Shown piece after piece: positions 1-20,791 of a DNA stretch of 64,000 nt. This stretch comes from Hymenobacter tibetensis (GTDB taxonomy: Bacteria > Bacteroidota > Bacteroidia > Cytophagales > Hymenobacteraceae), in contig NZ_CP094671.1 of NCBI RefSeq assembly GCF_022827545.1, forward strand, positions 61,597 through 125,596. The letters run 5' to 3'. The position numbers and the translations under genes were made by a program. Position 1 is the first letter of the stretch; the number at the start of each line of letters is the position of its first letter. The notes beneath the pieces are model-generated. The model was not told the origin of the DNA. It was given only the letters and a program-made list of their open reading frames with translations, and did not search any database.

Positions 1-1361
1 CCCGTTACGACGGCAGCTCCCGCTTTGTGCGCAACGAGCGCTGGAACGTGTTCCCGGCGGTATCAGTGGGCTGGAACGTGGCGCAGGAAAATTTCTGGAA
101 ATGGGGCGATGCCGTGCAGACGCTAAAATTCAGAGGCTCCTATGGCGAGTTGGGCAACCAGAACACAACCGACTTTTATCCTTTCTACCCCAGAATACCC
201 GTTGGCGTGAACAACGGCTCATGGCTACTCAACGGACAGCAGCCTAACTCAGCTTCTGCACCTGGCCTAGTAAGCTCTTTGCTGACCTGGGAGCGAGTAA
301 CGGACATGAACGTCGGCCTGGATTTGGCCATGCTGAAAAACCGCTTCACGCTGAATTTCGATTACTTCAAGCGCAAGACGTACGACATGGTAGGCCCGGC
401 GCCAGAGCTTCCGGCCACCCTGGGTACCTCAGTACCACGAATCAACAACGCCGACCTGGAGTCGTATGGCTTCGACCTGGAGGCCGGCTGGCGGGACCAA
501 ATCAAAGGGTTCCAGTACGGTGTGCGCGCTGTTCTGTCTGATGTTCAGCAGCAGGTCACCAAATACGCGAACCCAACTGGCAACATCAACACCTTCTTCG
601 AGGGCCAAATAATCGGCGATATCTGGGGTTACACGACAGTCGGTATCGCCAAAACGCAGGAAGAAATGGACGCGCATCTAGAGCAGGTCAACCAGAATGT
701 GGTGGGCAACCGGTGGGTAGCCGGGGACATTATGTATGCTGATCTGAACGGCGACGGCAAGATTGATGCTGGTACCGGCGTGCTGGGCAATACCGGCGAC
801 CGGAAGGTTATCGGCAACACTAACCCGCGCTACCGCTACAGCCTGGACCTGACTGCCAGCTGGAAAGGGTTCGATGCACGTCTGTTCTTGCAAGGCGTAG
901 GTAAGCGCGACTATATGCCCAACGGTCCTTACTTCTGGGGCGCCAGCGGGGGCCTGTACCAGTCGGCCGGTTTTAAGGAGCACCTAGACTTTTTCCGCGA
1001 CGAAACTTCCTCCATGGTGCAAGCGGGAGTAGCCGGAGTAAACCTGGACAGCTACTTCCCCAAGCCCTACTTCAATACCAACAAGAACCAACAGGCCCAG
1101 ACCCGCTACGTTCAGAGTGCGGCCTATATGCGTCTGAAAAACCTGCAGATTGGCTACACCTTGGCTAACCCATTCGTGGCAAAGGCTGGCATTTCGCGCA
1201 TCCGCTTCTTCGTGTCGGGCGAAAACCTGCTCACTTTCACCAAGATGACCAAAATCTTCGACCCGGAAAGCGTGGGGTTAACAGATAGCTTCAACAGCAA
1301 CGACGGCAAAACTTACCCCTTCTCCCAGGTCTACTCCGGCGGATTGAGCGTAACCTTCTAA
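1..1361 (+). CDS. SusC/RagA-family TonB-dependent outer-membrane transporter, C-terminal part
   Basis: This is the 3' part of a SusC-type TonB-dependent transporter, which imports oligosaccharides across the outer membrane with the SusD lipoprotein next to it. The reading frame is open from the window edge and begins RYDGSSRFVRNERW, the motif usually seen in the distal beta-barrel of SusC proteins. The N-terminal signal peptide, carboxypeptidase-like domain and plug lie outside the window. The visible 450 or so residues are rich in alternating aromatic and polar strands and end in LSVTF, a typical outer-membrane barrel C-terminus with a terminal Phe. susD follows 12 bp after the stop, so the two are co-transcribed. 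The family assignment is very secure. The substrate is inferred only from the downstream enzymes. Confidence 0.95.
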   Translation, partial: RYDGSSRFVRNERWNVFPAVSVGWNVAQENFWKWGDAVQTLKFRGSYGELGNQNTTDFYPFYPRIPVGVNNGSWLLNGQQPNSASAPGLVSSLLTWERVTDMNVGLDLAMLKNRFTLNFDYFKRKTYDMVGPAPELPATLGTSVPRINNADLESYGFDLEAGWRDQIKGFQYGVRAVLSDVQQQVTKYANPTGNINTFFEGQIIGDIWGYTTVGIAKTQEEMDAHLEQVNQNVVGNRWVAGDIMYADLNGDGKIDAGTGVLGNTGDRKVIGNTNPRYRYSLDLTASWKGFDARLFLQGVGKRDYMPNGPYFWGASGGLYQSAGFKEHLDFFRDETSSMVQAGVAGVNLDSYFPKPYFNTNKNQQAQTRYVQSAAYMRLKNLQIGYTLANPFVAKAGISRIRFFVSGENLLTFTKMTKIFDPESVGLTDSFNSNDGKTYPFSQVYSGGLSVTF

Positions 1362-1373
1362 TTGATTACAGGA

Positions 1374-3371
1374 ATGAAAAAGAATATTCATACGAAACTG
1401 GCCGGAGCCGTTGTGTTGCTGGCTACGTGGGGATTAGCTGGCTGCAACGATTTCTTGGATCGGGAGCCGCTTTCAGATATTACACCTGACAAGTACTTCA
1501 CCAACGAAACTGATCTGGCTACCTACACGGTGGCTCGATATAGCATGTTTCCTACTCACAGCAACAATTTTGATGTGGGAACCTTCGGCATCGACAACCA
1601 TACCGACAACCAGGCCACCAGTGGCTTCAACAACCGCTGGGTGCCGGGTGAGTTGCGGGTACCACAGTCGGGCGGCAGCTGGGATTTCAGCCGTATCCGG
1701 GAGATGAACTACTACCTCCAGACGGTGGTACCGCGCTGGAAAGAGGGAAGAATAACTGGTTCCGCCCCTAACGTTGGGCACTACGTGGGCGAGGGCTATT
1801 TTCTGCGCGCCTACGAGTATTTCAACCGGGTGCAGGCGCTCGGCGATTTTCCGATTCTTCGTACTGCCCTGGCCGATGAGCGGGAGAATCTGATCGAAGC
1901 CTCCAAGCGCCGGCCGCGCAACGAGGTTGCCCGCTTCATTATTGCCGACCTCGACTCTGCCATTTCGCTGCTGCAAACAGCCCCTCCCAGCGGTAAAAAC
2001 CGCATCTCCAAAAATGCGGCCCTGCTGTTCAAATCGCGGGTTGCGTTGCATGAGGCGACTTGGCTTACGTACCACCGCAACACCGCCCACGTACCCGGCG
2101 GGCCCGGCTGGCCGGGTGCCGGCAAGATTGACGGCTTTACCATTAACCTAGACGCGGAAGTTGACTACTTCCTGACCCAGGCAATGGAGGCGGCGAAGCT
2201 GGCGGCCGATGCGGTGCCATTGGTCAGCAACCTGCGGGAGGACGGCTATAATTCTTCCGCCAACCCCTACTTCGCGATGTTCTCCGACCAGAACATGGAG
2301 AAGTACTCGGAGGTGTTGATGTGGCGCCAGTACGACCCGACTTTTGTGGGCATCAACAACAACGTAAACCACTACCTCAACCAGAACGGCGGCAACACCG
2401 GCTACACCCGGGGGCTAGTGGATAACTTTCTGATGAAGAACGGTCTGCCGATTTACGCTACCGGTTCTGGCTACAAAGGTGACGACGACCTCAGGGCAGT
2501 GAAGCAAGAGCGTGATAATCGCCTGCAACTATTCATGAAGGCACCGGGGGAGCTTCGCCTGACCGACCGCACCAATGGCGATGGTTCGCCCCTTCTGAGT
2601 GGTAACCCCGACATCGTTGGCTTGCAGGAAACGCGTGACGTGACGGGCTACAGTGTGAAAAAAGGACTTTCGTACCAATTCGCTCAGACGGTAGGCAACG
2701 TGGGCACCACGGGCAGCATCGTATTCCGGGGCACAGAGGCCTACCTGAACTACATCGAAGCTTCTTATCTAAAAGAGAAGACCATTAACGCGACGGCAGA
2801 CAGATACTGGCGGGCCATCCGGGAGCGAGCGGGCGTGAACCCTGATTATACTGTTACGGTAGCAGCTACTGTGATAGAGCAGGAAGCTAAAAACGACTTC
2901 GCGGCCTACTCAGCTGGTCGTTTGCTAACCGACCCCATCTTGTATAACATTCGTCGCGAACGTCGCAATGAGCTGATTGCCGAGGGCATGCGCTACTACG
3001 ACCTGAAGCGTTGGCGGGCAATGGACCAATTGAAGGCTACTCCCTATATCATCGAGGGCTTCAAGATTTGGGGACCATTACAGGCTCAGTATGCTCCAAA
3101 CGGCACTTCAGTATTGATTGAGGCAGGTACGCCCGGTAAAACGGCCAATGTGTCGAAAAAATCAGAGAGCCTATACCTGCGTCCTTATCGCATCAACCTG
3201 GCAAATAACAATCTGGTGCGGGAGGGCTACCGCTGGGCTTTCGCGCACTACCTCGACCCAATTGCGACGCAGCACTTTCTGATTACCTCCTCCAACGGTG
3301 ATTTGAATGCCTCCACGATATACCAGAACCCAGGCTGGCCAACGGAGGCTAACGTCGGCGCCCGGGAGTAA
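1374..3371 (+). CDS. SusD/RagB-family glycan-binding surface lipoprotein
   Basis: SusD-type lipoprotein of 665 residues that forms the substrate-binding lid on the SusC barrel. The N-terminus is a lipoprotein signal peptide: a Lys-rich start, a hydrophobic run and the lipobox LAGC with Cys24. The next residues, NDFLDREPLSDIT, match the usual SusD N-terminal consensus. Near the C-terminus is RRERRNELIAEGMRYYDLKR, the highly conserved SusD_RagB signature. A TTG codon lies 12 bp upstream in frame, but the ATG at 1374 gives a correct signal peptide, so it was chosen. The gene sits directly behind susC and ahead of the glycoside hydrolases. The product is cell-surface anchored. Confidence in the family is very high; the glycan specificity cannot be read from the sequence. 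Confidence 0.96.
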   Translation: MKKNIHTKLAGAVVLLATWGLAGCNDFLDREPLSDITPDKYFTNETDLATYTVARYSMFPTHSNNFDVGTFGIDNHTDNQATSGFNNRWVPGELRVPQSGGSWDFSRIREMNYYLQTVVPRWKEGRITGSAPNVGHYVGEGYFLRAYEYFNRVQALGDFPILRTALADERENLIEASKRRPRNEVARFIIADLDSAISLLQTAPPSGKNRISKNAALLFKSRVALHEATWLTYHRNTAHVPGGPGWPGAGKIDGFTINLDAEVDYFLTQAMEAAKLAADAVPLVSNLREDGYNSSANPYFAMFSDQNMEKYSEVLMWRQYDPTFVGINNNVNHYLNQNGGNTGYTRGLVDNFLMKNGLPIYATGSGYKGDDDLRAVKQERDNRLQLFMKAPGELRLTDRTNGDGSPLLSGNPDIVGLQETRDVTGYSVKKGLSYQFAQTVGNVGTTGSIVFRGTEAYLNYIEASYLKEKTINATADRYWRAIRERAGVNPDYTVTVAATVIEQEAKNDFAAYSAGRLLTDPILYNIRRERRNELIAEGMRYYDLKRWRAMDQLKATPYIIEGFKIWGPLQAQYAPNGTSVLIEAGTPGKTANVSKKSESLYLRPYRINLANNNLVREGYRWAFAHYLDPIATQHFLITSSNGDLNASTIYQNPGWPTEANVGARE

Positions 3372-3394
3372 CCTGCGCCGTCTGCTACTCTTAT

Positions 3395-3441
3395 CTATCG
3401 CCGCTCTTTTACCTCTGTATGCGGTGAACGAGCGGCGATAG
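3395..3441. repeat. Perfect 12-bp inverted repeat after susD (mRNA hairpin or attenuator)
   Basis: CTATCGCCGCTC (3395-3406) is perfectly inverted as GAGCGGCGATAG (3430-3441) around a 23-base loop, starting 24 bp after the susD stop. No T-run follows, so it is not a classic Rho-independent terminator. It may stabilise the susCD message or attenuate read-through into the enzyme genes. Confidence 0.55.
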
Positions 3442-3519
3442 ACTTTGCGCCTGGTACCAATCCAAGACTCAGTATTAGGGAAATAAACAAAAAGTGGTTT
3501 CATCCTCTAAGGCCTACAT

Positions 3520-4392
3520 ATGCCACGAACCGGAAGCATGCCGCTGCTATATTTCATCCGAAAGCAGCGGAGCAAACTCAACCTGCTGCCGCTGCTGGTT
3601 GCCACTCTTCTGCTGGGCAACTGCGCCCGCCAGGAATTAGCGCAAACGAGTTCCGTTAACTGGAAGCTGGTATGGGCCGATGAGTTCAATAAAAACGGCA
3701 AGCCCGACCCCGAAAAGTGGGGGTTTGCGTCGCGCAGCTCGCCCGATTGGGCCTGCTACTGCACGGACACACTGGCCACCACGTTCGTGCAAAACGGGGA
3801 GCTGTACCTGCGGGGCATCATCAACCGCGACGCGACCGATTCAGTTAAGTACAAGACGGGCTGCATTCAAACCAAAGGCAAGTTTGCTTTCAAGTACGGC
3901 AAGGTGGAAGTGCGGGCCAAGCTAGGAAAAGGCAAGGGCTCGTGGCCGGCCATCTGGCTGATGCCGCAACAAAACAAGTACGGCTTCTGGCCCCACAGCG
4001 GCGAAATCGACATTATGGAGCAGCTCAACAGCGACTCCATCTTCTACCAGACGCTGCACAGCAACTACATCGACCAACTGAAACAGAAGACCAATCCGGT
4101 GTATTTCAATACCAGCCCTTACCAGGTGGGTGAGTACAACGTCTACGGCCTAGAATGGTATCCCGACCGTCTGGACTTCTTCGTGAACGGGCGCAAAACT
4201 TTTACCTACCCCAAAGTGGTGGGCACAGACCCCACCCAGTGGCCCTACGACCAAGATTTCTACATCATTCTGAACCAAGCCCTGGGAGGGAAGTGGGTGG
4301 GTGAGATTCACGACCAGGATGTGCCGGTGCAAATGGCGGTAGACTGGGTGCGGGTTTATCAGCAAAAAGACCAATTAAGTGCCTCCCGGTAA
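3520..4392 (+). CDS. GH16-family endo-glycanase lipoprotein
   Basis: Glycoside hydrolase family 16 enzyme of 290 residues, an endo-acting beta-glycanase with retaining mechanism. The catalytic motif E-I-D-I-M-E is present, with nucleophile E162, D164 and acid/base E167. The N-terminus carries a lipobox-like LLLGNC, so the enzyme is probably an outer-membrane lipoprotein that cuts the polymer at the cell surface. A second in-frame ATG lies at 3538; both starts keep the signal sequence. GH16 covers laminarinases, agarases, porphyranases and endo-beta-1,4-galactosidases of the mucin O-glycanase type. Given the GH84, GH29, GH2, GH35 and sulfatase neighbours, an endo-beta-galactosidase role is attractive, but that is inference. 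The family call is secure. Confidence 0.92.
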   Translation: MPRTGSMPLLYFIRKQRSKLNLLPLLVATLLLGNCARQELAQTSSVNWKLVWADEFNKNGKPDPEKWGFASRSSPDWACYCTDTLATTFVQNGELYLRGIINRDATDSVKYKTGCIQTKGKFAFKYGKVEVRAKLGKGKGSWPAIWLMPQQNKYGFWPHSGEIDIMEQLNSDSIFYQTLHSNYIDQLKQKTNPVYFNTSPYQVGEYNVYGLEWYPDRLDFFVNGRKTFTYPKVVGTDPTQWPYDQDFYIILNQALGGKWVGEIHDQDVPVQMAVDWVRVYQQKDQLSASR

Positions 4393-4398
4393 GTAGGG

Positions 4399-4441: not shown

Positions 4442-4522
4442 TACTACCTACTATTCGCTTGAGCGAAAGCTCGTGGTTCAGAGCTGTTTTAGGACAGCTC
4501 AGGGCTTAACACAACCTTGCCA

Positions 4523-6067
4523 ATGAAACACCTACTCTTACTTGCTATCTTTTACTTCTGCAGCTGCCACCTCAGCGGGGCGCAGCAGTCGGTGCAAAAA
4601 AAGCCCAACATCATCATTATCGTCTCCGACGATCACGCCTACCAGGCCATCAGTGCCTACGGGCAGGGCCTCATGCAAACGCCCGCCATTGACCGCATTG
4701 CCAAAGAGGGTGTCCGCTTCAACAAAGGCTACGTCACTAACTCGATTTGCGGGCCAAGCCGGGCCGTGCTTCTAACCGGTAAGTACAGCAACAAAAACGG
4801 CTACAAAGACAACGAAACCTCTAGTTTCGATGCCCGCCAGAATTCCTTTGCCAAGGAGCTGCGTAAAGGCGGCTACCAGACCGCCTGGATCGGTAAATAC
4901 CACTTGGGCCACGAGCTGCAAGGCTTCGACCACTGGCAGGTGCTGCCGGAACAAGGCGACTACTACAACCCGGACTTCTTGATGATGGACGGTAGCCGCA
5001 AGCGCATGGAAGGCTACGTGAGCACCATCACCGAGGACCTGGCGGAAAGCTGGCTCGACCAGCGCGACAAGACCAAGCCTTTTTGCCTGGTGATCGGCCA
5101 CAAAGCCACCCACCGCGTGTGGCTGCCCGACACCCAGGACTTCGGCCGGTTCGACAACCAAACCTTCCCGATACCCGCTAGCTTCTACGACACCTACGCC
5201 GGGCGCAAGGCCGCCCAACTGCAGGAAATGTCCATCGACAAGGACATGAAGATGGGCTACGACCTGAAGATGTTCGCCAACTACGACAGCGTGCGCGAAG
5301 GAGCCGTAGCCCGCATGAATGACGCGCAGAAAGCGAAGTTCCGGGCCTACTACGAGCCCATCAAGAAAGACTTAGATAAGCGCCAGCTTACGGGCAAAGC
5401 ACTGGCCGAGTGGAAGTTTCAGCGCTACATGCGCGACTACCTGAGCACGGCCGCCTCGCTGGACCGCAACATCGGGCGCACACTTACTTACCTCGATAAA
5501 AACCAGCTCCAGGACAATACCATCGTCATTTACCTCTCCGACCAGGGCTTTTACCTGGGCGAGCACGGCTGGTTCGATAAGCGCTGGATGTACGAGGAAT
5601 CGTTCCGCACGCCGATGGTGATGCGCTACCCCGGCGTGGTGAAGCCCGGCACCGTGTCCAACAATTTTGTGCTGAACCTCGACATTGCCCCCACCGTGCT
5701 CCAGGCGGCCGGCCTGCCCGTCCCCCCGGACATGCAGGGCGAGTCGATGCTGCCGCTGCTGACGGGCACCAAGGCCAAGGGCCGCGACGCGCTGTACTAC
5801 CACTACTACGAAAACGGCGAGCACGCCGTATCGCCGCAGTTTGGCGTCAGAACCCAGCGCTACAAGCTCATTCGCTTCTATAAGCGGGCGAACGATTGGG
5901 AGCTCTACGACCTGCAAAAGGACCCCCGGGAGATGCGCAACCTCTACGGCCAGAAAGGCTACGAGAAGATAACGGCCGACCTGAAAAAGCAGCTTCGGGG
6001 GCTGATAGACAAGTACGAAGACGACGATGCCCGGCAGCTAATGGCCGAGAAAACCGCCGGTATATAA
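4523..6067 (+). CDS. Arylsulfatase-type (S1) glycan sulfatase
   Basis: Formylglycine-dependent S1-family sulfatase of 514 residues that removes sulfate esters from glycans. The maturation motif C-G-P-S-R (C76, the Cys converted to formylglycine) fits the CxPSR consensus, followed by the usual LLTGK. The metal-binding IIIVSDDHAY near the N-terminus and the C-terminal YLSDQGFYLGEHG are also typical. A signal peptide (MKHLLLLAIFYFCSCHLSG, mature from about AQQ) sends it to the periplasm or surface. The ATG at 4523 was chosen over an in-frame TTG six bases upstream. The segment QGDYYNPDF followed by long insertions resembles N-acetylglucosamine-6-sulfatase-type members (possibly subfamily S1_11); that subfamily call is from memory and tentative. 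It needs a formylglycine-generating enzyme, which is not in this window. Confidence 0.93.
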   Translation: MKHLLLLAIFYFCSCHLSGAQQSVQKKPNIIIIVSDDHAYQAISAYGQGLMQTPAIDRIAKEGVRFNKGYVTNSICGPSRAVLLTGKYSNKNGYKDNETSSFDARQNSFAKELRKGGYQTAWIGKYHLGHELQGFDHWQVLPEQGDYYNPDFLMMDGSRKRMEGYVSTITEDLAESWLDQRDKTKPFCLVIGHKATHRVWLPDTQDFGRFDNQTFPIPASFYDTYAGRKAAQLQEMSIDKDMKMGYDLKMFANYDSVREGAVARMNDAQKAKFRAYYEPIKKDLDKRQLTGKALAEWKFQRYMRDYLSTAASLDRNIGRTLTYLDKNQLQDNTIVIYLSDQGFYLGEHGWFDKRWMYEESFRTPMVMRYPGVVKPGTVSNNFVLNLDIAPTVLQAAGLPVPPDMQGESMLPLLTGTKAKGRDALYYHYYENGEHAVSPQFGVRTQRYKLIRFYKRANDWELYDLQKDPREMRNLYGQKGYEKITADLKKQLRGLIDKYEDDDARQLMAEKTAGI

Positions 6068-6186: not shown

Positions 6187-8715
6187 ATGGATATAAAACA
6201 TAGTCGGAACCTTCTTGCTGGGCTTTTCTTCTCACTCTGTCAGAGCGCAGTCGCCCAGACCGTGTACCCGCTGCCGCACCAGAGCGAGATAGGAGGGGAG
6301 CGTTTTGCCGTGGCAGGTCCTTTCCAGTTGAAGGGGTTGCCCGCCAGCGAAGCTTTCACCCAGCAAGTACTGCAGGAGGTGGCGCCGCGGGGCAGTGGTC
6401 TAGGGCCGCGCCTACAGGTAACGCGACCCGCCAAAGCGGACGCGCGCCTGCAACGTTCAGAAGCCTACAAGCTGCGCCTCACGCCAACTCAGATAACGAT
6501 TGAGGCCTACGATGACCGCTCGGTATTCTATGCCGTGCAAACCCTGCGGCAGCTTGCCCAGCAAGATGCTAGCGGGCGCGTTACGCTGCCCACGGGCACC
6601 ATTAGCGACTTCCCGGACGTGGCGGCCCGCGGCACGGTGGAAGGCTTCTATGGGGAGCCCTGGAGCCACCAAGACCGTCTCGAGCAGCTCCGCTTCTACG
6701 GCAAGCTGAAGCTGAATACCTACATCTACGGCCCCAAGGACGACCCCTACCACACGTCGCCGAACTGGCGCAAGCCTTACCCCGAGGCGGAAGCCCGTCA
6801 ACTGGCCGAGCTGGTCCAGGAGGCCCGGCGCAACAAGGTGGACTTTGTGTGGGCAATTCATCCGGGGCAGGACATTCGCTGGAACCAGGCCGATAGCAGC
6901 GCCATCCTGGCCAAGTTTGGGATGATGTACGACTTGGGCGTCCGCTCGTTTGCCGTGTTCTTCGATGATATTTCCGGCGCCGGCACCGATGCCCGCATGC
7001 AAGCCAAGCTGCTCAACTTCGTGCAGCAGCGGTTTGTCCGGGCCAAGAAAGATGTGGCCCCGCTCATCATGTGCCCCACCGAGTACAACAAGAGCTGGGC
7101 CAACAAAACACCAGGTACCTACCTCGACATTCTGGGCCAGCAGCTGGACCCAGCCATCCGGGTGATGTGGACCGGCAACAAGGTGGTCGACGACATCACC
7201 ACGGAGGGGCTGGAGTGGGTGAACCGCCGAATCCGGCGCCCGGCTTTCGTGTGGTGGAACTTCCCGGTGAGCGACTACGTGCGCGACCACCTGCTCATGG
7301 GCCCGGCCTACGGCCTCGACCCGCAGGCGGCGCCCCACATGTCGGGCTTTGTGTCTAATCCCATGGACAAGGCCGAGGCTTCGAAACCCGCTATTTTCAG
7401 CGTGGCGCTCTACAGCTGGAACATGCAGGCATATAAGCCCGAGCAGGCCTGGGAAGCCGCCAGCCGCTACATAATGCCCGGCGCGGCGGAAGCCTTTCAG
7501 CTTTTCAGTGCTCACAACAGCGACCCCGGCCCCAACGGCCACCGCTACCGCCGCGACGAGTCGGCGGAGTTGCAGTCCTACCTGCGCACCTTTCAGGAAG
7601 CCTACGGCAAGGGACAATACGCCCCCGAGGCGGGCCAGCGTCTCCAGCAGGAATTTCAACGCATAGCCCAGGCCCCTGCCGCAATCAGGCAGCACGGCGG
7701 CAACGCGCGGCTGCTAGAACAATTGGCGCCCTGGTTGCGGCAGTTTGAGCTGCTAGGCCGGGCGGGCCAGCACGCCCTGGCCGTGGCCGAAGCGCGGGCC
7801 GCGGGCAACCCCACCACTACCTGGGCCGCCTACTTGCCCCTGGCGGCTGCCCTCGACAGCATGGCTACCGTAAATGCCACGCTCAACCAGAACCCGCACC
7901 AGCCCGGTGTCAAGACCGGCTCGTTGGTGCTGATGCCCTTCGTGGAGGAAATTCTGGCGCAGTCGGGCGCGTACCTGCTCGGGTACAACCCGGCCCTGGC
8001 CGGTGGCCCCAGCCCGGAAACCAGCACGCCGTACCGCCAAAGCCAGAAGCTGGGCAACCAGCCGCTGCTGCACACCAACCAAGCGCTGGCGTACGCGCCC
8101 ATGCTGGAAGTGGCGTACCTCGATAGCAGCGAGTATCTAGGCTTCAAACCCGCCGCGGCGCTGCAAGTCACGGCCCTGCACTACAATTTGGGCGGCGACA
8201 AACTGCCGGCCTGGGCGGCTTTGGAAGCCTCGCGGGACGGCAACACCTGGGAGCCGCTGACGCCCCCGCAGCCGCGCGGCAAAGGCAGCGTACCCGTTAC
8301 CGACCCGGCCCTGCGCTACGTGCGCTTGCGCAACGCCTCCGGCAAACGGCAAAACTTCCAGCTGAAAGAGCTGCGGCTGCAAGTACAGCCCGCCAAGGGA
8401 GCAGGAGAAGCCGTTTTTGCCTGCGACGGCAGCGTGAGCACCTACCAAGCCCTGACCGAGCAGCAACCAACCGCCGTGGCGCTACCCCAGGCGTTGCAGG
8501 GCGCGGCCCTGGCCGTGCTAGCCAAAACCAACGGCGCCACCCTGACCATCAGCGGCACCCGGAAGGGCCGGCCGCAGATGCTCTACCGCGGCACCGGCGA
8601 CTACATCCAGTTGTCGGCCAAACGGTTGAAAAACGTGTCGGCGCTAACGTTTTCGGTGCGCGGCAGCCAGGCGGCGCGCATCTACGAGCTAATCCGGCAG
8701 CAACCACCTAGTTAA
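6187..8715 (+). CDS. GH84-family beta-N-acetylglucosaminidase
   Basis: GH84 enzyme (842 residues) that releases terminal beta-linked GlcNAc by substrate-assisted catalysis, related to Bacteroides GH84 and eukaryotic O-GlcNAcase. A signal peptide ending in SAVAQ is followed by a GH20b-like N-terminal domain, then the catalytic barrel beginning RGTVEGFYGEPWS. The signature FFDDISGAG supplies the paired catalytic aspartates D260 and D261. A helical region and a C-terminal module of about 250 residues follow, the last part beta-rich and possibly carbohydrate-binding. At 842 residues it is longer than the roughly 740-residue Bacteroides homologue. Its place between sulfatase and fucosidase suggests trimming of GlcNAc after desulfation. 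The family call is very secure. Confidence 0.95.
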   Translation: MDIKHSRNLLAGLFFSLCQSAVAQTVYPLPHQSEIGGERFAVAGPFQLKGLPASEAFTQQVLQEVAPRGSGLGPRLQVTRPAKADARLQRSEAYKLRLTPTQITIEAYDDRSVFYAVQTLRQLAQQDASGRVTLPTGTISDFPDVAARGTVEGFYGEPWSHQDRLEQLRFYGKLKLNTYIYGPKDDPYHTSPNWRKPYPEAEARQLAELVQEARRNKVDFVWAIHPGQDIRWNQADSSAILAKFGMMYDLGVRSFAVFFDDISGAGTDARMQAKLLNFVQQRFVRAKKDVAPLIMCPTEYNKSWANKTPGTYLDILGQQLDPAIRVMWTGNKVVDDITTEGLEWVNRRIRRPAFVWWNFPVSDYVRDHLLMGPAYGLDPQAAPHMSGFVSNPMDKAEASKPAIFSVALYSWNMQAYKPEQAWEAASRYIMPGAAEAFQLFSAHNSDPGPNGHRYRRDESAELQSYLRTFQEAYGKGQYAPEAGQRLQQEFQRIAQAPAAIRQHGGNARLLEQLAPWLRQFELLGRAGQHALAVAEARAAGNPTTTWAAYLPLAAALDSMATVNATLNQNPHQPGVKTGSLVLMPFVEEILAQSGAYLLGYNPALAGGPSPETSTPYRQSQKLGNQPLLHTNQALAYAPMLEVAYLDSSEYLGFKPAAALQVTALHYNLGGDKLPAWAALEASRDGNTWEPLTPPQPRGKGSVPVTDPALRYVRLRNASGKRQNFQLKELRLQVQPAKGAGEAVFACDGSVSTYQALTEQQPTAVALPQALQGAALAVLAKTNGATLTISGTRKGRPQMLYRGTGDYIQLSAKRLKNVSALTFSVRGSQAARIYELIRQQPPS

Positions 8716-8858: not shown

Positions 8859-10397
8859 ATGAACGTATCCCTGACTCGCTCCTCGGCCACTGCTGGCATC
8901 GCCGGGCTTCTGCTGGCGGCCACTGCCTGCGCGCCGCGCCAAGTGGGCAAAAGCGTTAGCTACGCCGCCATTCCAGCCCAGAGCACCGAGTCCGCCATCG
9001 TCACGCAGGCCGCTCACGTGGTACCTACCCCCCGGCAGCTGCGCTGGCAACAACTCGAGCTGACGGCTTTTTTTCACTTCGGCGTCAACACCTTCACCAA
9101 CAAAGAGTGGGGCACCGGCCAGGAAAGCCCCCAGCTGTTCAACCCCACCCAACTCGACGCCCGCCAGTGGGTGCGCACCGCCAAGGCAGCGGGTATCAAG
9201 CAGGTGATTCTCACGGCCAAGCACCACGACGGCTTCTGCTTGTGGCCTAGCAAATACACCGAGCACTCCGTGAAGGCTAGCCCCTGGAAAGAAGGCCAAG
9301 GAGACGTGGTGAAAGAAGTGGTGGACGCCTGTCGCGCCGAGGGAATCGGGTTCGGGGTGTACCTATCGCCCTGGGATATGAACTCGCCGCTATACGGCAC
9401 CGCGGCCTACAACGACTTCTTTATCAACCAACTGACCGAGCTGCTTTCCAACTACGGCCAGGTGGACGAAGTATGGTTTGACGGGGCCAACGGCGAGGGG
9501 CCGAACGGCAAGAAGCAGGAGTACGACTTCGAGCGCTGGTACGCGCACATCCGCAAGTTGCAGCCCCAGGCCACCATTGCCGTGATGGGCCCCGACGTGC
9601 GCTGGGTGGGCACGGAAACCGGCTACGGCCGCGAAACCGAATGGAGCGTGGTGCCCGCCAACAACCTCGACCAGGCCACCATATCGGCGGGGTCGCAGCA
9701 GGCCATGACCATCAAGCCGCAAGGTGATATGCGTGCCGCCATCGTGGGCGGCCGCGAGCAGTTGAAAAAGGCCAAAGGCTTGGCGTGGTACCCCGCCGAA
9801 ACCGACGTGTCCATCCGGCCCGGCTGGTTCCATCACCCCGCTGAAAACGACAAGGTGAAGACGCCGGAAAAGCTACTGGACATCTATTACAGCTCGGTGG
9901 GGCGCAACAGCGTGCTGCTGCTCAACCTGCCCCCCGATACGCGCGGGCTTGTCCACGAAAGCGACGTGAAAGTTCTGCAAGACTGGAAAGAGCTGCGCGA
10001 CGACACCTTCACGCAAAATCTGGCTGCCGGGGCCCGCGTGCAGGCCCCGGGCAGCCGGAATAGCAAGGCCCTGCTCGACAGCCGCTACGACACCTACTGG
10101 ACCACCGGCGGGTTCGACAGCACGGCCGTGGTGGAACTAGCCTTGCCGCAAAGCCGAACCTTTGACGTGCTGATGCTGCAGGAGAACATTGCCGTGGGCC
10201 AGCGCATCGAAAAGTTTGCCTTGGAAGCCTGGCAGGACGGGCAGTGGCAGCTTGTGACCGAAGGCACCACCGTGGGCTACAAGCGGCTGCTGCGCTTTGC
10301 GCCGGTAACCACCGATAAAGTGCGGCTGCGCATCCTCTCCTCGCGGCTCAACCCCACGCTCTCGGAGCTAGGCCTCTACAAACAACCGGCCGGGTAG
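8859..10397 (+). CDS. GH29-family alpha-L-fucosidase lipoprotein
   Basis: Alpha-L-fucosidase of 512 residues, retaining mechanism. The lipobox-like LLAATAC near residue 24 suggests a lipoprotein. The catalytic domain contains FHFGVNTFTNKEWG, AKHHDGFCLWPS and the nucleophile motif VWFDGANGEG with D208. This motif style matches the GH29-B type, which prefers alpha-1,3/1,4-fucose on branched (Lewis-like) structures. A C-terminal discoidin/F5-8C-like beta-sandwich of about 140 residues follows. Fucose set free here can feed the permease and oxidative fucose operon at 16.9-22.5 kb. Start at ATG 8859 fits the signal sequence. Family confidence is very high; the linkage preference is inferred from the motif style. 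Confidence 0.95.
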   Translation: MNVSLTRSSATAGIAGLLLAATACAPRQVGKSVSYAAIPAQSTESAIVTQAAHVVPTPRQLRWQQLELTAFFHFGVNTFTNKEWGTGQESPQLFNPTQLDARQWVRTAKAAGIKQVILTAKHHDGFCLWPSKYTEHSVKASPWKEGQGDVVKEVVDACRAEGIGFGVYLSPWDMNSPLYGTAAYNDFFINQLTELLSNYGQVDEVWFDGANGEGPNGKKQEYDFERWYAHIRKLQPQATIAVMGPDVRWVGTETGYGRETEWSVVPANNLDQATISAGSQQAMTIKPQGDMRAAIVGGREQLKKAKGLAWYPAETDVSIRPGWFHHPAENDKVKTPEKLLDIYYSSVGRNSVLLLNLPPDTRGLVHESDVKVLQDWKELRDDTFTQNLAAGARVQAPGSRNSKALLDSRYDTYWTTGGFDSTAVVELALPQSRTFDVLMLQENIAVGQRIEKFALEAWQDGQWQLVTEGTTVGYKRLLRFAPVTTDKVRLRILSSRLNPTLSELGLYKQPAG

Positions 10398-10524
10398 CGG
10401 CCCCTGCTGATTGGCCCGGCAGAAAAAATGGTTGTCTGCCGATGTCTGCGGCTCGGGGGTATCTGGGCCGCGGACAAGGCCTAAAAACCATCCCACATAA
10501 TCCTTCCACTTGCTTTCTCCTTTC

Positions 10525-12594
10525 ATGCGACTTCGCAAAATCCTTGTCCTTCTTCTGTTCATCGTCCTGCGCGCCGTCCCGGTTTTTGCGCAGCGCGATA
10601 CCATAGCGCTCAACCGTGACTGGCAGTTCGCCGTGGACAAAAAGGCCGAGGGAATTTCAAGCCAGTGGCAAAAGCAGCCGCTGCCCCAAGCCCGCGTTGT
10701 GCAGGTGCCCCACACCTGGAGCGTGGAGCAGGACAACCAGCGCCACTATGGTTGGGGCTGGTACCAGAAAACGATTGATGCCCCCGCCGCTTGGAAAAGC
10801 CAGAGCGTGGTGCTGGAGTTTGGGGCCGTAAACCACACCGCCTACATCTACCTGAACGGCGAGAAGGTAGGCGAGAACATCGGCGACGGGTTCGATAAGT
10901 TCTACATCGATTTGACCGGCAAACTGAAAACCGGGCAGAAAAACATGCTCACCGTAGCCGTCAACAATGATTACGGCCGCAACAAGGTGCCGTTCGGTAA
11001 CTCTTTCGACTGGCCCAACGACGGAGGCATTATCCGGCCCGTGGCCCTTATCGTGTCGGGCAAGCCGGCCGTGCGCTACCTGCACGCCGAGCCCAAGCTA
11101 GACGTGCGCACCAACGCCGGCACCCTGCAGCTGCGCCTAGGCCTAGACGAAGCCGCGGCCCGCAACCTGACCTTTGCCGTGACCATCACCGAGGAAAATC
11201 AGCCTTCCAAAAAAGTGGTGCTAAAGAAGACCGGCAAAGCCACCTGGAAAAACGGCGAGGCAGTGCTTTTCTACTCCCTGCCCAAGATAAACCCCTGGCA
11301 TTTTGACTTCCCGAACCTTTACCACATCGAGGTGGCAGTACTCAGCGGCCGGAAAGCCGTGGACCGCATCAGTGCCAACACCGGCTTCCGGGAAGTGAAG
11401 TTCGAGGACGGTAAAACCTACCTGAACGGCGAGCGGGTGAAGCTGATGGGCGTGGAATGGACGGCCGGCTCCAACCCCGACTACGGCTTTGCCGAACCAG
11501 TGGCGGAAATCAAGCGCCAGGGCCGCCTGATGAAGGAAGTAAACGCCATTTTCACCCGGCAGCACTTCCAGCAGTCGGATGTATTCTACGAATTCTGCGA
11601 CCGGAACGGAATTCTGGTGCAGCAGGAAGTACCGCTCTGGGGCCCCGAAACGCCCGCCAACGACACCATCCGCACCATTGCCATGCAGCAATTGCAAACC
11701 ATCGTGCGCAACATGTACAACTACCCCAGCATTTTCGCGTGGGGCACGGGCAACGAGCTGCGCGGCCGTAGCGCCGACATGAAGCAGATGATTACGGACC
11801 TGGTGGCCCGGGCGCACGCGCTGGACCCCTCGCGCCACGTGGCCTACGTGAGCAACACCCTCACGCAGGGCTTCTACAACCGCCCCAACTTCACGCCCGA
11901 CGCCGGCAGCCTCGGCGACTACTTGATGATGAACGAGTACGGCGGGAGCTGGTGGGCGCTACCAGTGGGCCAAATCCACAGCTACCTCGACAGCGTGCAC
12001 CTTTCCTACCCCTCCAAGCCGCTCTTTATCTCGGAGTTCGGCCTAGTGGAACCCAACTTCCGGGGCGGCGACGAGCGGCGCATCGAGGACCTGGTGTACC
12101 ACATGGCCATCTACGAGAGCAAGCCTTACATAGAGGGCGCCATTTACTTCGACCTGACCGACTACCGCACCCACTACCCCGGCACCAGCGAGCAAAACAA
12201 GTACCGCCGCCGCGTGCACGGCATCTACGATATGTACGGCAAGCCCAAACCTTCCATGAAAGTGCTGCGCGAGATGTCGTCGCCGCTGGAAGTGCAGCAG
12301 CTGCGCCAGCAAGGAAAAAAAGGCAAGGCCAGCCTGCTCATCTTCGGCAGCGTGGGCCTACCCCAGCACACCGCGAAGGGCTACAAAGTGTACCTCTCCA
12401 GCAAAACCGACAACTGGCAGGCCAGCAAAGCCTACGCGCTGCCGGACATCAAGCCGGGCCAGAAAGTGGAGTTCGAGATTGACGACGAGTTCAACGGGGT
12501 CGGCATCGTTACGGTGGTCCGCCCCAACGGCTACGTGGTCAGCCAGAAATCCTTCTACACCAACAGCCCCGAGCTGCAACCGATGGGCCAATAG
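10525..12594 (+). CDS. GH2-family beta-galactosidase-type glycosidase
   Basis: GH2 enzyme of 689 residues with a cleaved signal peptide (up to PVFAQ). Domain order is the N-terminal sugar-binding jelly roll (NRDWQFAVD, VPHTWSVEQ, HYGWGWYQKT), an immunoglobulin-like domain, the TIM barrel and a short C-terminal domain. The acid/base lies in WGTGNELRG (E411) and the nucleophile in FISEFGL (E504). An in-frame TTG at 10510 would add five residues; the ATG at 10525 gives the better signal peptide. GH2 includes beta-galactosidases, glucuronidases and mannosidases. With a GH35 neighbour and GH84/GH29 enzymes, beta-galactosidase is the best guess, but activity is not proven by the sequence. Confidence 0.92.
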   Translation: MRLRKILVLLLFIVLRAVPVFAQRDTIALNRDWQFAVDKKAEGISSQWQKQPLPQARVVQVPHTWSVEQDNQRHYGWGWYQKTIDAPAAWKSQSVVLEFGAVNHTAYIYLNGEKVGENIGDGFDKFYIDLTGKLKTGQKNMLTVAVNNDYGRNKVPFGNSFDWPNDGGIIRPVALIVSGKPAVRYLHAEPKLDVRTNAGTLQLRLGLDEAAARNLTFAVTITEENQPSKKVVLKKTGKATWKNGEAVLFYSLPKINPWHFDFPNLYHIEVAVLSGRKAVDRISANTGFREVKFEDGKTYLNGERVKLMGVEWTAGSNPDYGFAEPVAEIKRQGRLMKEVNAIFTRQHFQQSDVFYEFCDRNGILVQQEVPLWGPETPANDTIRTIAMQQLQTIVRNMYNYPSIFAWGTGNELRGRSADMKQMITDLVARAHALDPSRHVAYVSNTLTQGFYNRPNFTPDAGSLGDYLMMNEYGGSWWALPVGQIHSYLDSVHLSYPSKPLFISEFGLVEPNFRGGDERRIEDLVYHMAIYESKPYIEGAIYFDLTDYRTHYPGTSEQNKYRRRVHGIYDMYGKPKPSMKVLREMSSPLEVQQLRQQGKKGKASLLIFGSVGLPQHTAKGYKVYLSSKTDNWQASKAYALPDIKPGQKVEFEIDDEFNGVGIVTVVRPNGYVVSQKSFYTNSPELQPMGQ

Positions 12595-12672
12595 GGGCCT
12601 CGCCTAGCCCTGCTATCAGTGGTGGGGCTAGCCATTTCTTCAAAATTTTTTGTTCACGACGTACCCTTCCGC

Positions 12673-14541
12673 ATGTTGAAATTAACGCGCACCTGGTGCC
12701 TGCTAGGGGCACTACTAGCGGCCGGCCTTTCGGCACCAGCACAGCAGAAACACACTTTCGAAATCCAGGACGGGCAGTTCAAGTATGACGGGCAGCCCAC
12801 GCCGATATATTCGGGTGAGATGCACTACGCCCGGGTGCCGCGCCCGTACTGGCGCCACCGCTTGCAGATGATGAAGGCCATGGGCCTCAACACCGTCGCT
12901 ACCTACGTGTTCTGGAACTACCACCACCCATCGCCGGGCGTGTGGGACTTCAGCACCGGCAACCGCAACCTGGCCGAGTTCGTGCGCACGGCGCAGCAGG
13001 AGGGCATGTTCGTGATATTGCGGCCCGGCCCCTACACCTGCGCCGAGTGGGAGTTTGGCGGCTATCCGTGGTGGTTGCAGCAAAACAAAGACTTGGTAAT
13101 CCGGGCGAACAACAAGCCGTTCCTGGATTCCTGCCGGGTATATCTGGGCAAACTGGCGGAACAGGTGCGTAGCCTCCAGGTACGCCAGGGCGGCCCCATT
13201 ATCCTCACCCAGGTGGAGAATGAATTCGGCTCGTACGTGTTGCAGCGGCCTGATATTCCGCTGGCCGAACACCAGCAGTACAATGCGGCCATCCGGAAGC
13301 AACTGGCAGACGTGGGCTTCGAGGGGCCATTCTTCACGTCGGATGCCTCTAATCTGTTCAATGGCGGTAGCACGCCGGGGGCGTTGCCCACGGCCAACGG
13401 CGAAGACGATGTCGCGCGCCTGCGTCAGTCGGTAAACCAATTCCACGACAACAAAGGCCCCTACATGGTGGCCGAATACTACCCTGGCTGGCTTGACCAC
13501 TGGGGTGAGCCATTCGTCCGCGTCACCACGGAGAAGGTGGTAAAGCAAGTGGCAACCTACCTGCAAAACGGGGTGAACTTCAACTTCTACATGGTGCACG
13601 GCGGCACCAACTTCGGTTTCACGGCGGGGGCCAACTACGACAAAAACCACGACATCCAGCCCGATATCACCAGCTACGACTACGACGCCCCCATCAGCGA
13701 GGCCGGGTGGGCTACCCCCAAGTACAAGGCCCTGCGGGAGCTGATGCTCAAGCACGTAAAGTACCCGGTGCCGGCCGTGCCCGCTCCGTTGCCCGTGCTG
13801 TCACTACCCCCCATTGCCATCAGCAAAGCCGTCAGCCTGTTTGACCTGAAGCGCGACGTGAAGCCGGTGCGCAACGACACGCCGCTTACGTTTGAGGCGC
13901 TGGGCCAGGGCCACGGCTACGTGCTGTATAGCCGCAAGTTCAGGCAGGCAGCCAAGGGCAACCTACAGGTGAAGGGCCTGCGCGACTTTGCCACCGTGTA
14001 TGTGAACGGACGGCGCGTGGGCGAGCTAAGCCGCCAGAAAAACACCTACACGCTAGCCGTGGACGTACCGGCAGGAGCCACGCTGGAGCTGCTAGTAGAA
14101 AACATGGGCCGCATCAACTACGGCGCGCTAATCGTGCAGAACACCAAAGGCATCATTGAGCCCGTGCTGCTCAACGACGCCCCCGTTACGGGCAATTGGG
14201 AAATGTACCGCATGCCTTTCGAGCAAGTACCGAACCTAAGCGCTTACCGAGCCGGCAAAAGCCCCGCGGGCCAGCCGACGCTCTACAGCGGCACCTTTAA
14301 GGTGGAGAAGCCCGGCGACGTATTTCTGGATATGCGGGGCTGGGGCAAGGGCCTCGTGTTCGTGAACGGCCAGAGCCTCGGCCGCTTCTGGCGCATCGGG
14401 CCGCAGCAAACGCTGTACCTGCCCGGCAGCTGGCTGCGCCAGGGCCAGAACGAAGTGGTGATACTGGAACAACTGAACGATGCTCCCCAGAAAAGCTTAA
14501 AAACCATCGATAAGCCAATAATAGACGACGTGAGGCTGTAG
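12673..14541 (+). CDS. GH35-family beta-galactosidase
   Basis: GH35 beta-galactosidase of 622 residues that removes terminal beta-linked galactose. The signal peptide ends at LSAPAQQ. The barrel shows YSGEMHYARVPRPYWRHRL, the family signature RPGPYTCAEWEFGGYPWWL (19 residues), VENEFGSY with acid/base E184, and MVAEYYPGW with nucleophile E268. Two C-terminal beta-sandwich domains follow, the last with GWGKGLVFVNGQSLGRFW, usual in the family. The longer in-frame GTG start at 12619 would wreck the signal peptide, so ATG 12673 is used. It lies 78 bp after the GH2 gene and is probably co-transcribed with it. Confidence is very high. Confidence 0.95.
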   Translation: MLKLTRTWCLLGALLAAGLSAPAQQKHTFEIQDGQFKYDGQPTPIYSGEMHYARVPRPYWRHRLQMMKAMGLNTVATYVFWNYHHPSPGVWDFSTGNRNLAEFVRTAQQEGMFVILRPGPYTCAEWEFGGYPWWLQQNKDLVIRANNKPFLDSCRVYLGKLAEQVRSLQVRQGGPIILTQVENEFGSYVLQRPDIPLAEHQQYNAAIRKQLADVGFEGPFFTSDASNLFNGGSTPGALPTANGEDDVARLRQSVNQFHDNKGPYMVAEYYPGWLDHWGEPFVRVTTEKVVKQVATYLQNGVNFNFYMVHGGTNFGFTAGANYDKNHDIQPDITSYDYDAPISEAGWATPKYKALRELMLKHVKYPVPAVPAPLPVLSLPPIAISKAVSLFDLKRDVKPVRNDTPLTFEALGQGHGYVLYSRKFRQAAKGNLQVKGLRDFATVYVNGRRVGELSRQKNTYTLAVDVPAGATLELLVENMGRINYGALIVQNTKGIIEPVLLNDAPVTGNWEMYRMPFEQVPNLSAYRAGKSPAGQPTLYSGTFKVEKPGDVFLDMRGWGKGLVFVNGQSLGRFWRIGPQQTLYLPGSWLRQGQNEVVILEQLNDAPQKSLKTIDKPIIDDVRL

Positions 14542-14681
14542 TAGCCAAGGCAGCGGGGGTGACGCCTGCGCCTCCGCTGTTACCTGCCTCCCTGAACGCA
14601 TGGGCCTAGACGCTTCCTAACGGTATGGGCCACATGGTGATGAGTTCCAATGGTTGTGTTTTGAGGCCTCTCCTTGGTGAA

Positions 14682-14708
14682 AACGAGCGGCGCTTTAAGC
14701 CGCTCGTT
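14682..14708. repeat. 10-bp inverted repeat (hairpin) after the GH35 gene
   Basis: AACGAGCGGC (14682-14691) and GCCGCTCGTT (14699-14708) pair around a 7-base loop in the gap between GH35 and the mutarotase. No T-run follows it. It shares the GAGCGGC core of the hairpin after susD, which suggests a recurrent intercistronic RNA element in this locus. Confidence 0.45.
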
Positions 14709-14770
14709 GCGGAAACAAATGACGACTAACAAGCCGGTTTCATTACTTCCACTTATCCCCTTCTACCAGT

Positions 14771-15142
14771 ATGGAATACCCTGAGGCTAGTTACCCACCG
14801 CAATTCAAAAGGTATTGCAAGACGCTGACCCTACAAGATGATGCAGTGCTGATCGAGCAGTACAAGCAAGCCCACGCACCCGATGTTGTGTGGCCGGTTA
14901 TCAACCAAGGGTTGCGCGAAGTGGGGGTGTTAAAGATGGAAATCTACCTGACGGGCCGTCAACTTTTCATGATCATGGATACCGTAGTGGATTTCAATCA
15001 TGATCAGGCAATGGCAACCCTGGCAACCATGCCCTACCAAGCGGAATGGGAAGCCTACGTCTCGCAATTCCAAGTTTCTGCAACCGAGAGCACGGCGGCG
15101 GAAAAATGGCAGCTGGTAGAACGCATATACACGCTGGATTAG
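14771..15142 (+). CDS. RhaM-family sugar mutarotase, likely L-fucose mutarotase
   Basis: A 123-residue cytoplasmic protein of the L-rhamnose/L-fucose mutarotase family (former DUF718), which interconverts the alpha and beta anomers of 6-deoxy sugars. Visible family features are the N-terminal KRYCKTLTLQDD, the HAPDVVWPVINQGLREVGV segment (active-site His plus WP), a central MEIYLTGRQLFMIMDT strand pair, and a C-terminal WEAYVSQF. The usual length is 104-115 residues, so this one is nearly standard. It lies between the glycosidases and the second GH16 gene. With a fucosidase upstream and a fucose permease/dehydrogenase operon nearby, L-fucose is the expected substrate. Rhamnose is the alternative; no rhamnose genes other than a broken GH78 are in the window. 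Confidence 0.78.
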   Translation: MEYPEASYPPQFKRYCKTLTLQDDAVLIEQYKQAHAPDVVWPVINQGLREVGVLKMEIYLTGRQLFMIMDTVVDFNHDQAMATLATMPYQAEWEAYVSQFQVSATESTAAEKWQLVERIYTLD

Positions 15143-15263
15143 GGCGGTCGACTCCCTGTCTGTGCAATCGATTTCCGATCGGCGGGCGGGGTCGTCCCAA
15201 AAGTTCACTTAAGACAAGTACTAGTGCCTTTCAATCAAATATCCACTCCCAAACCCCACTATC

Positions 15264-16496
15264 ATGAGTAAAAGAAATTTAATGATTGCCTGTTCGTCTT
15301 TGCTGTTCGCTTGTTCGAAACCAGAGATGGAACCATCGATCAATGATCAGCCAACGCCACCAACCACTGCTACCACTGCTGATGCCGTTACAGGTGCCTG
15401 GCGACTGGTGTTTGCCGACGAATTCAATTCTACTGGCGGTTTTGACGCCAGCAAATGGGTGTATTGCCCCCGGCAAACCTCGGCCTGGAACAAATACCTT
15501 ACCTCTTCCCCTAACTACGTTTCCCAGGATGGCGCTAACCTGGTGCTGAAAATGGACAATGCCGTTATCAGCGGCGACAATGTGCCGTACCATTCTGGCG
15601 GCGTGCAAACGGCTACCAAATTCAATTTGCGGTACGGAAAAGTGGAAGTCCGGGCCAAGTTCAAGAAAGGGCAGGGGTCCTGGCCAGCCATCTGGATGAT
15701 GCCGGAAACGTCTTCGTATGGCGGCTGGCCCAACAGCGGGGAGATTGACATTATGGAGCACGTCAACTACGAAAACGTTATTTATAACACCATTCATAAT
15801 GGCGCCGTAACCGGCCCCGGGGGAGGGAGCACGGCATCTCGTGCCACCGCGTATAATTCCACCGACTATAACCTGTATGGCATGGTCTGGACCCCTTCGG
15901 CTATTGAGTTTTACGTGAACAATGTTCTCACGTATACTTACTCCAAAGCCGCTGGGGCCACCTCCGCGCAGTGGCCGTTCGACAAGCCCTTCTACCTAAT
16001 CCTGAACCAGGCTGGCGGAGCCGGGTGGCCTGGTCCGATTACTAATGCCGACCTGCCGTTCAACATGCAGGTGGACTGGGTACGAGTATACAAGCAAGAA
16101 GAACTGGTTAACCCCGGTCTGGAGTCGGCTACGCTTGCACCGTGGGTGGCTGGACCAACAACTTCGGTAGTAACCACCAATGCCCGAACCGGGGCTAAAG
16201 CCATTGCGCTGCAAGGAGGAACCACCACGCTGGAGCAGACCGTAACCGGATTGCTTCCTAACACGACGTACACATTTGGGGGCTTTGGGAAGGTAGCGGC
16301 CGCTGGCACAAGTGCCATACTGGGCGTAAAAGGATATGGTGGAACGCCGGTAGACAGTCAAATCACCGGCACCAGCTACCAGCAGGCTTCGGTTACCTTT
16401 ACCACCGGGGCGAGCAATACGTCGGCTACGGTGTATTATTACAAGCCCGCCACCGGTACCGTGTACGGCGATGATTTCTATTTGAACAAGCAATAA
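15264..16496 (+). CDS. GH16-family endo-glycanase with C-terminal carbohydrate-binding module
   Basis: Second GH16 enzyme, 410 residues. The lipobox LLFAC near residue 17 marks a lipoprotein, followed by a Pro/Thr-rich linker and the GH16 domain (residues about 45-275). The catalytic motif GEIDIMEHV gives E160, D162 and E165. Residues about 280-410 form a CBM4/9-like beta-sandwich (NPGLESATLAPWV, ALQGGTTTLEQTV, YGDDFYLNK). The GH16 domain is clearly related to the one at 3520, with the same SWPAIWMMP and QVDWVRVYKQ framework, so the two are paralogues. Two GH16 enzymes in one locus suggest attack on different backbone regions or chain lengths. A strong terminator follows about 100 bp after the stop, closing the locus. 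Confidence 0.92.
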   Translation: MSKRNLMIACSSLLFACSKPEMEPSINDQPTPPTTATTADAVTGAWRLVFADEFNSTGGFDASKWVYCPRQTSAWNKYLTSSPNYVSQDGANLVLKMDNAVISGDNVPYHSGGVQTATKFNLRYGKVEVRAKFKKGQGSWPAIWMMPETSSYGGWPNSGEIDIMEHVNYENVIYNTIHNGAVTGPGGGSTASRATAYNSTDYNLYGMVWTPSAIEFYVNNVLTYTYSKAAGATSAQWPFDKPFYLILNQAGGAGWPGPITNADLPFNMQVDWVRVYKQEELVNPGLESATLAPWVAGPTTSVVTTNARTGAKAIALQGGTTTLEQTVTGLLPNTTYTFGGFGKVAAAGTSAILGVKGYGGTPVDSQITGTSYQQASVTFTTGASNTSATVYYYKPATGTVYGDDFYLNKQ

Positions 16497-20733: not shown

Positions 20734-20791
20734 ATGGGTGGGAATGAGTGAGCGGATATGGTGCCCGCACTGGCGGCGCGCCAGCGCGTGG

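Follow-up and report, generated by a model that had tools for sequence, protein, structure and literature searches.

How would a bacterium of Hymenobacter, a mostly environmental genus, come to hold genes that look suited to dismantling sulfated, fucosylated and sialylated animal glycans, a form of digestion seldom met in that genus and studied chiefly in gut bacteria? We analysed a 64,000-nt stretch of Hymenobacter tibetensis DNA (the window), corresponding to C3:61597-125596, where C3, of 125,596 bp, is contig NZ_CP094671.1, one of the 7 that make up the 6.33 Mb genome; C3 coordinates follow the contig numbering and window coordinates the numbering within the stretch. The window opens with a polysaccharide utilization locus (PUL) on a closed circular plasmid of 125.6 kb. 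Together with its flanks this locus quite probably forms a plasmid-borne catabolic island for animal-type glycoproteins, the predicted substrate, well supported by sequence, being sulfated, fucosylated and sialylated chains of galactose (Gal) and N-acetylglucosamine (GlcNAc). The novelty is in the setting and not in the kinds of enzyme.

Open reading frames (ORFs) combined with Pfam matches define ten forward-strand genes within window 1-16496, with SusC and SusD adjoining and the carbohydrate-active enzymes co-directional:

window 3..1361, + strand, SusC-type TonB receptor, 3' part (PF00593; whole gene C3:59544-62957; 76% identity to the plasmid of Hymenobacter sp. NBH84)
window 1362..3371, + strand, SusD-type surface protein (PF07980, PF14322; 81% to NBH84)
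window 3520..4392, + strand, GH16_1, predicted endo-beta-galactosidase of O-glycanase type
window 4517..6067, + strand, S1 sulfatase, predicted S1_11 exo GlcNAc-6-O-sulfatase (CGPSR; PDB 7p24, 5g2v)
window 6187..8715, + strand, GH84 beta-N-acetylglucosaminidase (PF07555 411 bits; NF041654 813 bits, under its 1000 cut-off)
window 8859..10397, + strand, GH29 alpha-L-fucosidase, alpha-1,3/4 type, with an F5/8 C domain (PF01120, PF00754)
window 10510..12594, + strand, GH2 exo-glycosidase, predicted beta-galactosidase (PF02837, PF00703, PF02836)
window 12619..14541, + strand, GH35 beta-galactosidase (PF01301 344 bits; PDB 6eon 459 bits, 3d3a 458 bits)
window 14771..15142, + strand, rhaM-family deoxy-sugar mutarotase, predicted for L-fucose (PF05336 82 bits)
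window 15264..16496, + strand, GH16_2, predicted endo-acting, O-glycanase side, with a C-terminal domain (PF00722)

The SusC gene starts upstream of the window. A first-pass annotation, made from the sequence alone, had described this one-strand run while overlooking the rhaM-type mutarotase (window 14771-15142), and the ORFs, Pfam matches and CGPSR motif bear its description out. It had also called the GH16 proteins lipoproteins, which a cysteine after a hydrophobic stretch makes plausible by eye, although the context of that cysteine is no textbook lipobox. The gene run is not chance, because the order of seven genes, SusC through GH2, recurs on another plasmid (76-88% protein identity, other genes being inserted between them) and because the GH84 family was found in merely 3 of 120 genomes of the genus. 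GH84 holds an FFDDIS stretch whose Asp-Asp pair we take to have the role familiar in this family. ARAGORN called a tRNA-Arg(tcg) on the reverse strand inside the GH84 gene (window 7752-7824); Rfam gave no match over threshold there, so the call is probably spurious.

Both GH16 enzymes retain the catalytic E-x-D-x-x-E motif as EIDIME. Phylogenetic analysis grouped them with the three solved O-glycanases that were placed, 6T2R, 6T2O and 6T2S, opposite four solved glucanases and with a split supported at 100/99, and a second tree recovered the same grouping (100/96). The first-pass annotation had hung its proposal on this point, a laminarinase or agarase grouping counting against it, and both proteins fall on the O-glycanase side. 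Amuc_0724 (6T2N) and Amuc_0875, placed in another branch by PMC7419316, were outside both trees. Four of the six chromosomal GH16 proteins of the same genome (chr_L011, L012, L013 and L016) group with the glucanases; the remaining pair, whose branches were very long in the 100/96 tree, was dropped. The top PDB match of GH16_1, by sequence as well as by fold, is 6t2r (BACCAC_03717), its nearest solved relative, and we predict this enzyme to be an O-glycanase-type endo-beta-galactosidase. GH16_2 falls in a separate subclade with Pedobacter-type proteins; many of its own relatives carry PF02018. Nine GH16 O-glycanases of this type are described as active on poly-N-acetyllactosamine (polyLacNAc) and keratan sulfate (PMC7419316).

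The S1 sulfatase carries the Cys-type C-x-P-S-R motif and is closest to S1_11 members, matching BT3177/BT4656 in a PDB sequence search (7p24, 546 bits over 482 residues; 5g2v, 491 bits). 7P24 is BT3177, of S1_11 (PMC10154620), and the S1_11 enzymes BT1628 and BT3177 are exo-acting on 6S-GlcNAc (PMC10154612), consistent with a predicted GlcNAc-6-sulfatase. BT3177 is a mucin S1_11 sulfatase of B. thetaiotaomicron; here the likely maturation partner is a plasmid-encoded FGE-type protein with two cysteines. Gut anaerobes, we assume, use a sulfatase maturase of another kind than FGE. For GH29 the top PDB row is 4zrx (530 bits, a row without an activity name), and the alpha-1,3/4-fucosidases 3mo4/3ues score 453 bits versus 82 bits for 2wvv-like fucosidases, which points to the group called GH29-B. 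GH35 matches beta-galactosidases. The sulfated, fucosylated Gal-GlcNAc class proposed in the first-pass annotation is thus supported by the GH16 trees and by the GlcNAc-6-sulfatase and alpha-1,3/4-fucosidase matches; its description extended neither to the plasmid nor to the sialic-acid half or the fucose genes of the system.

The system extends beyond the window. Upstream of the PUL is an island for sialic acid and GlcNAc, given here by C3 coordinates:

C3:29222, ROK regulator
C3:30588, NagB with a PIG-L domain
C3:32657, ROK kinase
C3:33487, GH20
C3:35941, NagP-like MFS protein, under the NagP cut-off
C3:37453, MFS protein
C3:38740, GH20, best stretch 109/348 profile positions
C3:40758, sialate O-acetylesterase domain protein
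C3:42535, NanM-type epimerase
C3:43668, NanA-like lyase, under the NanA cut-offs
C3:44799-49677, SusD/SusC pair
C3:49847, GntR/FCD regulator
C3:50563, sialidase with RIP and four Asp boxes
C3:51888, AGE, NCBIfam over cut-off
C3:53231, FGE-family protein, sulfatase activator type (GGSFMCNASYC)
C3:54600, second sulfatase (CAPSR)
C3:57640, ROK regulator

The nearest PDB rows of the sialidase are the bacterial sialidases 1w8n and 1eur (143 bits), and that of the second sulfatase is 9s8a. Downstream of the PUL are genes for fucose use and a cluster around a GH109-type protein:

window 16878..18131, - strand, FucP L-fucose permease (TIGR00885 357 bits, cut-off 280)
window 18274..19065, - strand, L-fucose dehydrogenase (NF052481 400 bits, cut-off 300)
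window 19087..19944, - strand, FAH-family hydrolase, predicted from its putative step as 2,4-diketo-3-deoxyfuconate hydrolase (PF01557 248 bits)
window 19969..20829, - strand, SDR dehydrogenase, likewise predicted as 2-keto-3-deoxyfuconate dehydrogenase (PF13561)
window 20792..22612, - strand, altronate/galactarate dehydratase family, predicted fuconate dehydratase (PF20629, PF04295; TIGR03248 279 bits, under the 731 cut-off)
window 22645..23640, + strand, AraC-type regulator (PF12833)
window 25549..26595, + strand, LacI-type regulator of the GH109 cluster (PF00356, PF00532)
window 26789..27712, + strand, nucleotidyltransferase (PF12804, PF00483)
window 27709..28851, + strand, APH-fold kinase, predicted N-acetylhexosamine 1-kinase, the sugar being putative (PF01636; no NCBIfam match)
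window 28856..29488, + strand, CBM9-like protein (PF16011 198 bits)
window 29555..31138, + strand, GH109-type, predicted alpha-N-acetylgalactosaminidase (PF21252 142 bits, PF01408)

The permease, L-fucose dehydrogenase, FAH hydrolase, SDR protein and altronate-dehydratase-family protein fit a non-phosphorylative fucose route, from whose known steps the predicted roles of the hydrolase and the SDR protein are taken; no lactonase for it was identified. NCBIfam matches of the GH109-type protein were only weak and to oxidoreductases. In one relative (G181:C1:3421860-3433636; L117, L118) GH109 and the nucleotidyltransferase adjoin a sialidase, a GH20, an arylsulfatase and an S1_11 sulfatase, a neighbourhood that links the GH109 cluster with the substrate proposed for the rest of the system.

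C3 is a plasmid separate from the chromosome-sized contig C1 (5,736,710 bp), and profile matches identify its Rep3 replication and ParA partition genes. There is no exact overlap between the ends of C3; when joined they yield an uninterrupted kinase frame, 480 of whose 500 residues align in one piece, at 44% identity, with a kinase from a Pseudoalteromonas plasmid, and the circle therefore closes at that junction. The PUL has a GC content of 58.7% and the sialic-acid island one of 59.2%, compared with 50.8% and 51.1% in two measured parts of the plasmid backbone and 53.8-62.2% in six chromosomal samples. The single GH29 match of the genome is on the plasmid, as are two of 4 GH20, two of 6 sulfatase and two of 8 GH16 matches. 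BNR_2 gave 4 matches, 3 of which exceeded the cut-off; the plasmid has one of the 4, and the chromosome has a stronger, sialidase-like one (G000:C1:1258749-1259570); with these chromosomal BNR_2 and sulfatase copies the plasmid is therefore not the sole holder of sialidase-like or sulfatase genes. Elsewhere on C3, two genes that look resolvase-like by eye lie far 3' of the PUL on opposite strands (window 38757-39419, +; 57417-58124, -). A PKD-domain protein at C3:11235-12710 (-) (L009:9235-10710) has a C-terminal part without a Pfam match at E 0.1 and a stretch, FYEFGRNFW, resembling by eye a degenerate metallopeptidase.

NZ_CP043645.1, from the soil bacterium Hymenobacter sp. NBH84, was the one plasmid of the collection to match the PUL closely, and such plasmid relatives support the Hymenobacter-like surroundings suggested by the first-pass annotation. 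The two plasmids have 19 genes in common order, with insertions between them, at 66-88% identity from the MFS gene at C3:37453 through GH2. These comprise genes for MFS, sialate O-acetylesterase, NanM, NanA, SusD, SusC, FCD regulator, sialidase, AGE and FGE, followed by sulfatase, ROK, SusC2, SusD2, GH16_1, S1_11, GH84, GH29 and GH2. The NBH84 island differs in its own GH27, PNGase F, further SusC/D pair, sulfatases and GH20s, one of which, near the sialidase, is placed differently and has 43% identity; GH27 and PNGase F are among the genes inserted into the shared order. Of that plasmid 149 of 190 kb were compared, and there GH35, rhaM, the fucose genes and GH109 went unmatched at E<=1e-30. 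It is typed non-mobilizable and has another replication protein. The Rep of C3 is instead 81.5% identical to that of a second NBH84 plasmid, NZ_CP043649.1, to which around 105 bases of the 20 kb surrounding C3 Rep match at the DNA level; the island and the replication gene therefore have different nearest partners.

Among the 120 genomes of the genus, this one alone gave matches to the sialidase (at E up to 1e-60) and to the sulfatase (at E up to 1e-150). GH16_1 (E up to 1e-40) had matches in 7, with 36-39% identity in the six genomes besides this one; three of these six were placed in a tree, all with glucanases. The first-pass annotation described such a full set as known from gut Bacteroides; it also occurs outside them. 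Across 204 genomes of the family Hymenobacteraceae, 21 had the sulfatase and 13 had GH16_1 (E up to 1e-80). All 13 genomes with GH16_1 also hold the sulfatase, 12 of them on one contig and <=6 kb apart (the exception being G130). We fetched 13 loci from relatives, 12 with GH16_1 together with G181, which was picked for its sulfatase. Counting matches with at least 50% identity, relatives of PNGase F and GH27 were present in 11, SusC2 and SusD2 in 11, GH16_1 in 12, S1_11 in 12, GH29 in 10, GH84 in 7, GH2 in 3, GH33 in 2 and GH109 in 1. These loci come from three genera of the family, two of them Pontibacter and Rufibacter, and in relative G165 the locus is on a 4.98 Mb contig and therefore chromosomal. 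Their PNGase F and GH27 set them apart from the plasmid: a search with the NBH84 PNGase F gave 0 matches in this genome, in a run that had no control of its own, and 0 on this plasmid, in a run that recovered 11 of 11 expected control loci among the 13, unrelated PNGase and endo-GlcNAcase types lying outside the search.

The gene content suggests a scheme whose activities, places in the cell and sequence of events are all inferred. A sialidase and an O-acetylesterase would strip the caps. At the cell surface one or both GH16 enzymes would then cleave Gal-beta-1,4-GlcNAc inside the LacNAc chain, and SusC/D would import the resulting fragments. In the periplasm GH29 would remove alpha-1,3/4-fucose and S1_11 the 6-sulfate from terminal GlcNAc, while GH2/GH35 would take galactose, GH84/GH20 GlcNAc and GH109 alpha-linked N-acetylgalactosamine, the sulfatases having been activated by the FGE-type enzyme. 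Fucose would enter by FucP and be broken down by the dehydrogenase route, sialic acid would pass via NanA and AGE, and GlcNAc via a kinase and NagB.

Several observations weigh against this substrate assignment. Around half of S1_11, mostly aquatic, is described as lacking the N-acetyl pocket and able to take L-galactose (PMC10154612), so the specificity of the S1 sulfatase is not certain; the PDB matches of GH2 are weak and mixed between galactosidase and glucuronidase. In the fold search with GH16_1 the other solved O-glycanases rank 11, 13, 14 and 27, under several glucanases, and the PDB scores of GH16_2 are near a tie between O-glycanase and glucanase (6t2r 145 bits, next 137). At 40 more distant GH16_1 loci, many on short contigs, an S1_11 relative was in reach in 2. 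Laminarin activity is reported for Amuc_0724 and, very weakly, for BACCAC_03717, the nearest relative (PMC7419316). The O-glycanase clade may also hold other activities, and membership is no proof of specificity because it includes untested enzymes, one beside a Bacteroides GH3 without a sulfatase in the stretch. That case is the Bacteroides finegoldii plasmid 45 (L119), where an O-glycanase-side GH16 adjoins GH3 and SusC/D pairs and no sulfatase is annotated in the stretch. It is nonetheless very unlikely that the GH16 pair are ordinary laminarinases in a mixed beta-glucan PUL: GH16 subfamily 3 is common to O-glycanases and many laminarinases (PMC7419316) and the folds are strongly similar, but the tree splits the two at 100/99, TxH is preceded by Q, H or N in 32 of 32 rows on the O-glycanase side but in 0 of 19 on that of the glucanases (a post hoc observation), and the ten PUL proteins scanned with Pfam include no GH3 or GH17.

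The sulfated, fucosylated and sialylated Gal-GlcNAc chains may come from N-glycan, mucin or keratan sulfate. The plasmid may well carry a trimmed Hymenobacteraceae N-glycan PUL that has lost PNGase F, its main target being complex N-glycans that bear LacNAc antennae, or else N-linked keratan sulfate, although we would stop short of calling this probable. An N-glycan source is favoured because PNGase F occurs in the relatives, with GH27 in 11 of the 13 loci and within the NBH84 island, and the sialidase and LacNAc enzymes fit it; here an O-glycan source is favoured because that PNGase is missing and because GH109 is present, an enzyme better suited to O-glycans or blood group A. That mucin-type O-glycan or keratan sulfate is the main target, with N-glycan use confined to the relatives, is a possibility we entertain somewhat more hesitantly; the O-glycanase-type GH16 and an S1_11 sulfatase as in mucin PULs speak for it, but PNGase F is present in most of the loci nearest to the core PUL, the subfamily of the second sulfatase (C3:54600) was not identified, and no mucin protease or 3-O-sulfatase was identified, no systematic search having been made. 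Of the targets named in the first-pass annotation (mucin O-glycan, keratan sulfate or poly-LacNAc), the LacNAc-type class therefore stands, whereas mucin-type O-glycan is not clearly the best choice. A non-animal source, either complex N-glycans of plants that bear Lewis a antennae or a polysaccharide of bacteria or algae that contains GlcNAc, appears unlikely. It would suit an environmental genus with a soil relative, the beta-1,3-Gal and alpha-1,4-Fuc described on plant N-glycans (PMC9522356) fit GH29, GH35 and GH20, and S1_11 enzymes of aquatic bacteria can act on L-galactose; however the available text of PMC9522356 gives sialic acid for mammalian and not plant N-glycans, and sialidase, O-acetylesterase, NanA-like and NanM-like genes lie within the same conserved island.

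An animal-type Gal-GlcNAc substrate invites comparison with known systems. The trimming logic of GH29, GH2 and GH20 is alike in the N-glycan pathways of gut Bacteroides (PMC9522356), which are PNGase-led as described there; here there is no such PNGase but an O-glycanase-type GH16 with S1_11. An O-glycanase-type GH16 with a GlcNAc-6-sulfatase is treated as a trait of the gut mucosa in the literature considered here. In contrast to the gut enzymes BACCAC_03717, BF4060 and BACCAC_02680 (PMC7419316), those described here are plasmid-borne in an environmental-type genus. C3 may be, though we think it rather less likely than not, a transferable replicon for an animal-glycoprotein diet, around 63 kb of its 125.6 kb providing a largely self-sufficient aerobic route from sialylated, sulfated and fucosylated LacNAc glycans to central metabolism with its own sulfatase activator and non-phosphorylative fucose pathway, as a module that might have left a Pontibacter-type chromosome and settled on unlike plasmid backbones in separate Hymenobacter strains. 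Predicted enzymes of these aerobic bacteria, namely the O-glycanase, the 6S-GlcNAc sulfatase and the PNGase of the relatives, are on offer for glycan analysis. Conservation in Pontibacter, Rufibacter and Hymenobacter plasmids suggests that non-gut bacteria also harvest animal glycoproteins, and that the gene set predates the gut niche or reaches beyond it and can reside on plasmids.

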